Assembly: GCF_001436255.1 (NCBI RefSeq)
Contig: NZ_AZEI01000019.1
Span: 1 to 64,000 of the forward strand
DNA from: Lentilactobacillus rapi DSM 19907 = JCM 15042
GTDB lineage: Bacteria; Bacillota; Bacilli; Lactobacillales; Lactobacillaceae
DNA: 64,000 nt
Reading direction: 5' to 3'
The notes under the pieces are model-generated. The model was given only the letters and a program-made list of their open reading frames with translations. It made no database searches and was not told the DNA's origin. Positions within the stretch are counted from its first letter, which is position 1. Each line of letters starts with the position of its first letter. Positions 44,200 through 48,489 of the stretch are shown here, one piece after another. Made by a program: the position numbers and the translations under genes.

Positions 44200-44835
44200 T
44201 TGGAATTAGAAGTCTTTAAAGGCCAAAACAAAAACGAACTATCGATGATTGAAGTAGCTCACGCAATCTTAGCAAAACGCGGTGACACAATGCCATTTGT
44301 GGATTTAGCTAATGAGGTGCAGTCATACTTGGGCGATAGTAACAAAGAGATCCGTGATCGCTTGTCACAATTTTATACGGATCTCAACATTGATGGTAGC
44401 TTTATTTCACTTGGTGACAATCTTTGGGGACTGCGAACATGGTACCCATACGAATCAATTGATGAAGCAACTGTCCACGCTGAAGAGGATGAAGATCGAC
44501 CAAAGCGCAAAAAGCGTCGGAAGGTTAATGCCTTCCTTGCTGATGCTTCCGACGATGATGATGTCATTGATTACGATGACGACGACCCTGAAGATCAAGA
44601 CGATGATGATTTCGTAGAAGATGACGATGACGCCGATGATGACGATAGCAGTGAAGATCTCGGTAAGTACAATAAGGATCTTGCAGACATCGATGACAGT
44701 ACCGATGATGCCAGTGATGAGGACTTACCAGATGGCATTGAGGGTCAGCTGAATGAACTGAACGATGACGATGATGATTCGTTCGGTGATGATGGTGACG
44801 ACGATGATGATTACAATTCAAAAGATAATCAATAA
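44200..44835 (+). CDS. rpoE: DNA-directed RNA polymerase delta subunit
   Basis: A 211-residue protein with an N-terminal HARE-HTH domain (about 1-85, [19 protein letters not shown]) that binds RNA polymerase. A basic stretch RPKRKKRRK near 103 precedes a long Asp/Glu-rich tail (about 115-211) that speeds polymerase recycling and displaces nucleic acid. The tail is low-complexity GAT/GAC sequence and creates spurious frames on both strands. Start TTG follows AAAGGACG by about 11 nt. HelD, its functional partner in Bacillus, is also in the window. Confidence 0.95.
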
Positions 44836-44957: not shown

Positions 44958-46610
<1,653 letters not shown>

Positions 46611-46761: not shown

Positions 46762-46850
46762 TCAACTAAAGGGATTGTATTTTGCAAGCTTTTTCTTTAA
46801 GATGTTTCATAGCGTTAAAAATGTTCGATTGTAAAAGTGAGGAAAGTTTG

Positions 46851-48131
46851 ATGACTAAATTAATAATAAATGGCGGGAATCGTCTTTCTGGTGAGGTGTC
46901 CATTGGCGGTGCTAAAAATAGCACAGTTGCGCTTATTCCGGCCGCCATTTTAGCCGACACACCAGTTAAATTTGATTCGGTTCCAGACATTTTAGATGTT
47001 CACAATTTAATGTTGATCTTAAAATCAATGAATGTATCGTCTGAGTTTAAGGGCGATGTTTTGTCAATTGATCCGACAAATATTGTCGAAGCACCGCTCC
47101 CAAGTAAGGCGATCAAGAGCTTGCGAGCTTCTTACTATTTCATGGGCGCATTGTTGGGGCGTTTTCAACGTGCAACGGTCAGCTTTCCTGGTGGCGATAA
47201 TATTGGGCCGCGACCGATTGACCAGCATATTAAGGCCTTTAAGGCACTGGGTGCTGAGGTGAGCGATCATGATGGAACTGTGACCATTCAAACGGGTCCA
47301 AATGGTCTGCATGGTGCGCAGATCTTTTTAGATGTGGTTTCTGTTGGCGCAACGATTAATACAATTCTCGCATCTGTTAAAGCACCCGGAACGACGGTGA
47401 TTGGTAACGCTGCTAAAGAACCTGAAATTATTGATATTGCGACATTTTTAAATAACATGGGTGCAAATATCAGAGGTGCCGGGACAGATGTCATTCGAAT
47501 TGAAGGGGTGCCAACCCTCCAAGCTCGTAACACCCACACAATTATTCCTGATCGAATTGAAGCTGGTACATATCTTTCCTTGGCCGCAGCGGTTGGGGAC
47601 GGTGTTTTGATTACGAATATTATTCCAGAACATTTGGAAGCATTTGTGGCAAAATTGGAGGAAATGGGTTGTGATCTAACGGTTTATGAAGACAGCATCT
47701 ATGTTGGGCCTTCACATGACCTGAAACCGATTCAAGTTAAAGTGATGCCGTTTCCGGGATTTGCGACTGATTTGCAGCAGCCAGTGACCCCACTATTATT
47801 TAAGGCGAGTGGTAGGAGTATCATCATTGACACCATCTATCCTAAGCGAATCAAGCACATTCCCGAACTCAACAAATTAGGCGGTCGCATCAAATCAGAA
47901 GACACTGACGAGGGTGTAATCGTTGTGGATCCTTCGCCACACTTGAAGGGGGCCCATGTTGATGCTGGTGAGATTCGTGCGGGCGCTTCGTTGGTTATTG
48001 CTGGTCTCATGGCAAATGGCACAACTGAAATTTCCCACGCAGAGTATATTTTGCGGGGATATGGCAGTATCGTCGATAAACTGACGTCAATTGGTGCAGA
48101 CGTCAAACTGGAAGTCGAAGAAAAAGTTTAG
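46851..48131 (+). CDS. murA: UDP-N-acetylglucosamine 1-carboxyvinyltransferase with Asp at the Cys115 position
   Basis: A 426-residue enzyme of the first committed step of peptidoglycan synthesis (phosphoenolpyruvate to UDP-GlcNAc). [13 protein letters not shown] near 19 carries the conserved Lys; GFATDLQQP near 302 the catalytic Asp; [10 protein letters not shown] near 383 the late Arg. The loop reads [13 protein letters not shown], so codon GAT (Asp116) stands where most MurA have the fosfomycin-reactive Cys. Asp at this position is active but fosfomycin-insensitive in Mycobacterium. ATG 46851 follows GAGGAAAG; the longer frame is rejected. A second MurA may exist elsewhere. Confidence 0.96.
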
Positions 48132-48237: not shown

Positions 48238-48489
48238 ATGAAAAAAGGAATTCATCCAGATTACCACCAAGTTGTATTTCAAGATTCAAGTACCGGATTC
48301 AAGTTTATGTCAGGATCAACTAAGACCTCTGACGAAACCATTGAATGGGAAGATGGCAAAACATACCCATTAATCCGGGTTGAAATTTCATCCGACTCTC
48401 ATCCATTCTACACTGGTAAGCAAAAGTTTACCCAAGCGGATGGCGCTGTGGATCGTTTCAACAAGAAATACGGTCTTACAAACAACTAG
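48238..48489 (+). CDS. rpmE2: 50S ribosomal protein L31 type B
   Basis: An 83-residue ribosomal protein of the zinc-independent B form. [23 protein letters not shown] opens it and [19 protein letters not shown] closes it. There is no Cys, so the zinc-binding CxxC of the A form is absent. The site AAAGGAGCG stands upstream of ATG. Confidence 0.96.

Follow-up and report, generated by a model that had tools for sequence, protein, structure and literature searches.

Within the window, by which we mean the whole stretch of 64,000 nucleotides of Lentilactobacillus rapi DNA that was analysed, the genes rpoE, pyrG, murZ and rpmE follow one another in that order (Table 1). The third of them is a complete open reading frame that begins at the ATG listed there, ends with a TAG at 48129-48131, and could alternatively start further upstream, at an in-frame TTG at 46782. 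Its product scores 468.7 bits, over its full length, against the curated MurA model TIGR01072 (cut-off 392.7), and 634.6 bits against the MurZ-type model NF009470 (cut-off 552), a model against which the second MurA of the same genome, MurA1, reaches 511.2 bits and so stays under the cut-off. The assignment to the MurZ paralogue is further borne out by a tree, in which the protein groups with MurZ and away from MurA1, and by the gene order pyrG-murZ-rpmE.

With residue numbers taken from the E. coli K-12 murA gene, the catalytic residues K22, N23, R91, R120, D305, R331, R371 and R397 of a MurA are all kept in the alignment; the cysteine of position 115 is replaced by aspartate. This replacement makes the protein a variant of MurA and gives no ground for its exclusion, Asp-type MurAs being accepted members of the family in the literature, and it is the feature by which fosfomycin-insensitive Asp-type enzymes are recognized in sequence. 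The best match in the PDB is 3zh3, presumably from Streptococcus pneumoniae, for which the printed alignment shows Cys at the 115 site. Close similarity was found to the MurZ of Lentilactobacillus dabitei, at 99.1% protein and 95.4% DNA identity. The gene in the window is a conserved and, as read from its sequence, probably functional MurZ paralogue of MurA. A preliminary description of this DNA had placed a MurA with Asp at the fosfomycin site here, and had assigned that residue to a GAT codon; the coordinates, the TIGR01072 score and the alignment to E. coli position 115 confirm both.

Table 1. Features of the murZ locus; positions are those of the window.
Feature	Position	Strand	Basis
rpoE, RNA polymerase delta subunit, neighbour	44200..44835	+	TIGR04567, 112.6 bits (cut-off 42)
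pyrG, CTP synthase, upstream neighbour	44994..46610	+	TIGR00337, 826.9 bits (cut-off 462.75)
Likely ribosome-binding site GAGGAAAG preceding ATG 46851	46839..46846	+	sequence reading, inference
murZ (MurA2/MurAB-type UDP-GlcNAc 1-carboxyvinyltransferase), Asp-type	46851..48131	+	NF009470 and TIGR01072 scores
Catalytic Lys22-Asn23, retained	46914..46919	+	alignment
GAT = Asp, E. coli position 115 (fosfomycin-reactive Cys there); residue and codon 116 of the reading frame	47196..47198	+	alignment
GAG = Glu, E. coli position 369 (Asp in 143/143 Cys-type rows)	47970..47972	+	alignment
ATT = Ile, E. coli position 370 (Leu in 143/143 Cys-type rows)	47973..47975	+	alignment
rpmE, type B ribosomal protein L31, downstream neighbour	48238..48489	+	NF002462, 141.1 bits (cut-off 86)

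The distribution of the aspartate was established by reading the same loop across the Lactobacillaceae and beyond. Asp is found in the MurZ of 24 of 24 genus-sample genomes (among them G005, where two pieces make up the gene) and in each of the 36 Lactobacillaceae genus codes sampled, one genome being read for each and the frameshift-split gene of G038 included, and a match to the murA family exists in 201 of 201 genomes of the family sample, with every best E-value in the MurZ range save that of the split G038 gene. The residue table, which excludes duplicates and two split genes, L027 and L103, and in which at least one gene still occurs twice, has Asp at the site in 80/80 Lactobacillaceae MurZ rows and Cys in 60/60 MurA1 rows. 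Cys is likewise read in 27/27 MurZ rows from seven other Lactobacillales families; these come from 28 genomes searched, out of 103 Lactobacillales genomes outside the Lactobacillaceae, and MurZ was absent from the 28th, the sole representative of an eighth family. Among the best 80 of 575 named loci, the 78 that are Lactobacillaceae by name read Asp and two Enterococcus rows read Cys, and in a Bacillota sample (86 genomes searched) Cys was present in 90/90 MurA genes read, these being the 30 best-scoring loci together with 60 picked among the matches listed, a set above the lowest-scoring matches. Two loci merit separate mention. In G038, a one-contig genome, a frameshift splits the only MurZ (L103, G038:C1:489647-491093), and is probably a sequence error, because no other MurA was seen there and its two matches are the two pieces. 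The mirror case, a Cys-type MurA1 alone with no MurZ, occurs in a genome of the order sample (L162, G220, family code f6).

One could suppose that the Asp codon reflects a sequencing error, or that the gene is a decaying and inactive paralogue. This idea draws on nothing beyond a single codon in one assembly, and its probability is negligible: Asp stands in all the MurZ loops read from Lactobacillaceae, the reading frame is full-length, MurZ occurs in 201/201 family genomes, and it is the sole MurA in many species. Asp115 is therefore neither an error nor a peculiarity of this strain.

The assembly that holds the window (2.85 Mb, 87 contigs, 99.78% complete) contains three matches to the MurA model, namely MurA1, the MurZ of the window, and a match of 74.3 bits that is probably AroA, judging by its score and neighbours. 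MurA1 (G000:C12:406103-407353) is intact, scores 552.8 bits, above the family cut-off, adjoins atpC and an mreB-family gene, and reads Cys at the fosfomycin site (PGGCAIGSRPID; loop GGCAIGSRPID), so that the window's MurZ is not the only MurA of its genome. The preliminary description had predicted inherent resistance on the proviso that the Asp-type enzyme be the main MurA, had proposed a check for a second murA and its loop, and had named a Cys-type MurA carrying the essential function as grounds for abandoning the prediction. That check did reveal a second, Cys-type copy. Its presence means that the proviso does not hold as it was worded, and the objection applies as far as the existence of such a copy is concerned. 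What stands is that MurZ is a complete MurA with the other checked catalytic residues, and that many relatives carry the Asp-type enzyme alone; the claim of resistance for this organism is thus partly supported.

The same genome was searched for other determinants of the response to the drug. Any fosfomycin resistance might arise from poor uptake rather than from the target, a reading in keeping with the finding that no GlpT/UhpT-type transporter exceeded its cut-off in the genome (best score for TIGR00881, 98.3 bits against 407.75). Poor uptake would nevertheless explain neither the fixation of Asp nor the loss of MurA1, and is itself compatible with an insensitive target; as a replacement for the target explanation it is improbable, perhaps one chance in four. 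A drug-modifying enzyme also appears unlikely: a search for glyoxalase-type domains gave four matches, two of them in a 329-residue frame, and the two short matching reading frames that were scanned against the Fos enzymes scored at most 26.3 bits, against cut-offs of at least 171.

The history of the two paralogues was examined in a 98-row tree from which columns 115, 369 and 370 had been left out. In it the 36 Asp-MurZ proteins form one side of a single branch (SH-aLRT 100), and a single change at residue 115 suffices for the Asp-MurZ, Cys-MurZ and MurA1 rows together. MurA1, on the other hand, is often missing where MurZ is kept. By hand count, a single match at E<=1e-40 was found in 77 of 201 family genomes, representing 19 of 36 genus codes and including four genomes of genus code g6 in which a degenerate MurA1 falls under that threshold. 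A MurZ tree was built for 36 Lactobacillaceae genomes, of which 19 were scored as having a sole MurA and 17 as having two. On this gene tree, with mostly one genome per genus code, the sole/two state changes nine times (bootstrap range 8-10), at least six of the changes being forced by supported branches; genus codes g1, g5, g6 and g17 are mixed for this state. In 20 sole-MurZ genomes the flank of atpC was fetched and inspected: MurA1 is absent from it in 19, of which 13 have an mreB-family gene beside atpC, and the twentieth, G028, has a degenerate MurA1 there; the window's own genome, serving as control, displays MurA1 in that position.

Of 50 named genomes, for which no completeness values were given, 24 have no intact MurA other than MurZ, a count in which matches of about 58 to 108 bits were taken as AroA. 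These 24 comprise nine Lactobacillus (one with a MurZ cut by a contig end), six Lacticaseibacillus, two each of Schleiferilactobacillus, Agrilactobacillus, Fructobacillus and Weissella, and one Leuconostoc. Among the other 26, both copies are present in 23 Lactobacillaceae; of the last three, Secundilactobacillus similis has a broken MurA1, Periweissella ghanensis has a second copy that is divergent, and one is Enterococcus cecorum. The broken gene of S. similis (L269, G350:C34:11000-12700) lies in three frame-shifted pieces with a stop, which could reflect either ongoing loss or assembly errors. Within the genus of the window's own organism, the congener G012 (one contig, 1.24 Mb, 88% complete) has Asp-MurZ only, and its atpC-mbl slot is closed. 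Because the Cys copy is often missing, and is missing also in this congener, Asp-MurZ can suffice, and the gene content of G012 suggests that it does so elsewhere in the genus.

These losses bear on a further reading, in which the Cys-type MurA1 carries the flux and sets the response to fosfomycin, MurZ is a minor or regulatory copy, and the Asp in MurZ matters little. The intact MurA1 of this genome would fit such an arrangement, as would work on Listeria, in which the MurZ-type copy can be deleted with continued growth and acts in the ClpCP-dependent degradation of MurA (as described in the part of PMC7286690 consulted). Against it stand the presence of MurZ in all 201 family genomes (frameshift-split in G038) and the absence of MurA1 from many, as well as the sole MurZ of the congener, and we consider it unlikely.

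In genus code g6 the MurA1 slot between atpC and mbl displays another outcome. Two genomes (G028 and G164; L164 and L165) hold intact frames of 410 codons there that are 72% identical to one another, a second degenerate pair (G141 and G215; L167 and L169) is 71% identical, and the two pairs are 34% identical to each other, with both placed inside the MurA1 of that genus on long branches. In all of them the Cys loop is missing, as are K22, N23 and the majority of the remaining catalytic residues. Their dN/dS values of 0.057 and 0.138 (Nei-Gojobori script; dS 3.4, which is saturated, and 1.5, respectively) point to purifying selection on proteins that could hardly be MurA enzymes, and the four genes are candidate MurA pseudoenzymes in genomes that show no further MurA except Asp-MurZ. 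Given the participation of Listeria MurZ in MurA turnover, they might plausibly be regulatory.

Mobility of Asp-murZ was considered and rejected. Above 60% identity a single plasmid match was found, a fragment covering residues 4-312 that is carried by plasmid L11988-8 of Loigolactobacillus backii (L278), a mobilizable plasmid from beer, and the same fragment lies on a contig of Pediococcus damnosus (L266). It is 94% identical to the window protein and is flanked by a pyrG tail, a TetR gene and an HAE3 transporter; in view of these neighbours it seems to be a passenger of a captured pyrG-murZ region, and not a working resistance gene. The region is Lentilactobacillus-like and has been captured by bacteria other than Lentilactobacillus. 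Three further species, E. faecalis, L. reuteri and L. oris, gave murA matches labelled as plasmid; these lie within an atp operon and appear to be chromosomal fragments.

Comparison of the Asp-type with the Cys-type MurZ over the whole protein revealed that the aspartate has fixed companions. When 112 Asp-MurZ rows (106 distinct; the named part excludes the truncated L199, the frameshifted L224 and two Enterococcus rows) are set against 29 Cys-MurZ rows, just three differences are fixed, C115D, D369E and L370I, with site 82 nearly fixed (Leu in 110/112 Asp-MurZ, Met in 28/29 Cys-MurZ). The Cys-type MurZ of the other Lactobacillales belongs to the same orthologue group, at 57-62% identity for 27 of them, and unlike the window's MurZ retains Cys115-Asp369-Leu370 in 29/29 rows. 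Over 143 Cys-type rows (29 Cys-MurZ, 24 MurA1 and 90 Bacillota), 34 sites are invariant, and exactly three of these, 115, 369 and 370, have another majority residue in Asp-MurZ, the changed residue being present at each in 112/112 rows. Among all aligned rows, 165 (145 distinct) read D-E-I and 183 (180 distinct) read C-D-L; the 14 with neither are fragments, frameshifts, degenerate MurA1s and one Periweissella copy. All three positions are linked to fosfomycin. Two substitutions of clinical E. coli, D369N and L370I (Takahata 2010, cited in PMC10352792), fall on the same two positions, and L370I is the identical substitution; those are reported with Cys115 unchanged and, according to the review's table, with MurA overexpression, whereas here the changes are fixed together with Asp115, and residue 369 is Glu.

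The pairing of residues 115 and 370 was followed across phyla with MurA genes from 22 named records of a plasmid collection, some of which are whole chromosomes or seemingly pieces of them, chosen from overlapping listings with 135, 137 and 115 matching records. Additional Asp-type lineages were thereby found in Bacteroidota (four), Tsukamurella (one) and a Streptomycetaceae type (five, of which L417 has Asn305), to which the second copy of Periweissella ghanensis was added from its genome. That copy (L268, G356:C3:8216-9663) is a divergent Asp-type MurA with Asp115, Asp369 and Val370, has every checked catalytic residue, and is about 36-38% identical to MurZ. In the resulting set of 71 rows, residue 370 is Ile in 21 and Val in one of the 22 Asp-type rows, 11 of which are Lactobacillaceae MurZ, and the 49 Cys-type rows have Leu in 47 and Ile in two, L415 and L416, both on very long branches. 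These two, from Burkholderia stagnalis and Streptomyces sp. NBC_00161 respectively, are very divergent MurA-like proteins with Cys115 and Ile370; L415 also has no loop PGG, Arg331 or Asp369, and may not be a MurA, and L416 retains all other checked catalytic residues. A general rule that Asp115 needs Glu369 is ruled out, as 11/11 Asp-type rows outside Lactobacillaceae MurZ keep Asp369.

The weakly supported tree of these 71 rows implies five changes at 115 and five at 370, with gains and losses not told apart, and an independent-pairs test gave three pairs changing in the same direction, none in the opposite direction and two with no difference (p 0.25; five pairs, with long branches meeting). 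Five pairs are too few for statistical proof, and coupling of 115 and 370 is accordingly suggestive only. The plainest alternative is that the triad reflects shared ancestry and drift, with 369 and 370 unrelated to Asp115, and we give it a little under even odds. Within the Lactobacillaceae there is one change only, so that the link of 369 and 370 is there a single inherited event which cannot by itself demonstrate coupling; in addition to the result of the pairs test, the Cys-type L416 combines Ile370 with intact remaining catalytic residues, the text of PMC4062475, in the portion consulted, implies that Chlamydia pecorum MurA has Asp115 with Asp369 and Leu370 kept, and C115D alone is reported to leave E. 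coli MurA fully active (PMC4790336, in the part consulted). Drift does not readily account for the other 31 sites invariant in Cys-type rows, which keep their majority residue in Asp-MurZ, nor for Ile or Val at 370 in every Asp-type row over five changes at 115, against two of 49 in Cys-type rows on very long branches.

Aspartate at this site has precedents. The MurA proteins of Mycobacterium tuberculosis, Chlamydia trachomatis and Borrelia burgdorferi likewise have Asp in place of Cys115, with intrinsic fosfomycin resistance, and the same change renders E. coli MurA fosfomycin-insensitive (both according to the part of PMC4790336 consulted). The parallel with mycobacteria and chlamydia drawn in the preliminary description is therefore apt for residue 115 and incomplete otherwise, since 369 and 370 are also changed. 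In contrast to those three species, a Cys-type paralogue coexists here, and the Glu369 of the window's MurZ differs from the Asp369 of the 11 other Asp-type rows, a set without those species. Closest is a study of Leuconostoc and lactobacilli (BMC Genomics 2022, PMC9733070), which reports the same residue in the same family and describes Leuconostoc as intrinsically fosfomycin-resistant; in the part consulted it treats one MurA, with no MurZ/MurA1 split, no mention of 369 or 370 and no loss of a Cys copy. In the open-access literature searched, subscription papers being outside its scope, neither the triad C115D/D369E/L370I nor the MurZ/MurA1 split in Lactobacillaceae nor MurA pseudoenzymes were found. 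Asp115 itself is already published; what is new and testable is the pair of fixed substitutions, at 369 and 370, that accompanies it, together with the natural series of MurA1 losses.

The explanation that we favor, and consider probable as a whole, is that an active, drug-proof MurZ arose once, together with the triad, and that losses of MurA1 came later. MurZ would most likely catalyze enolpyruvyl transfer from PEP to UDP-GlcNAc, and with Asp in place of the cysteine that fosfomycin alkylates, covalent binding of the drug should fail. A carboxylate could take over the acid-base and product-release work of Cys115, as reported for E. coli C115D. The single change on the gene tree would most simply be placed in the ancestor of the Lactobacillaceae, with D369E and L370I alongside, and these two positions, at which E. 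coli substitutions go with lower fosfomycin susceptibility, may have a functional part here as well. A fosfomycin-proof MurZ would then have made the Cys-type MurA1 dispensable, permitting its many losses; in this Lentilactobacillus, with both copies, MurZ may represent a drug-proof second route that probably sustains precursor supply when MurA1 is blocked. The sequence, its conservation, the single change on the gene tree, the repeated absence of MurA1 and the fixed differences are direct observations, from which we infer the activity of MurZ, its drug insensitivity, its sufficiency in this strain, the sequence of events and whatever functional part residues 369 and 370 may play.

Published phenotypes, as given in the parts of the sources consulted, extend beyond Leuconostoc. 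All tested strains of Lactobacillus delbrueckii had a fosfomycin MIC of >256 mg/L (PMC12077209), and its presumed sole-MurZ state is extrapolated from nine Lactobacillus genomes, none a named L. delbrueckii and one with a MurZ cut by a contig end. In Weissella, fosfomycin resistance is called common by a paper that points to annotations of fosB and of transporters (PMC4621295).

A more inclusive reading, to which we give only about one chance in three, is that Asp-type MurA represents a distinct and repeatedly evolved active site, in which Asp115 and Ile/Val370 change as a pair and Glu369 is added as a third member in the Lactobacillaceae, and that, once this MurZ had arisen, the family no longer depended on the Cys-type MurA1, and the gene then disappeared repeatedly or, in one genus, survived as a conserved, catalytically dead pseudoenzyme with perhaps only a regulatory role. 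The 115/370 pair offers a concrete and inexpensive biochemical handle on how a MurA gives up its cysteine, and suggests that residue 370 be read together with 115 in sequence-based prediction of resistance. The coexistence within one family of genomes with both paralogues, with MurZ only and with a degenerate MurA1 provides a natural set-up for telling the roles of the MurA copies apart. The finding could explain, family-wide, why lactobacilli and leuconostocs are reported to be fosfomycin-resistant in the absence of acquired genes, and in doing so would help both the safety assessment of food strains and the choice of treatment in urinary infection by these bacteria.
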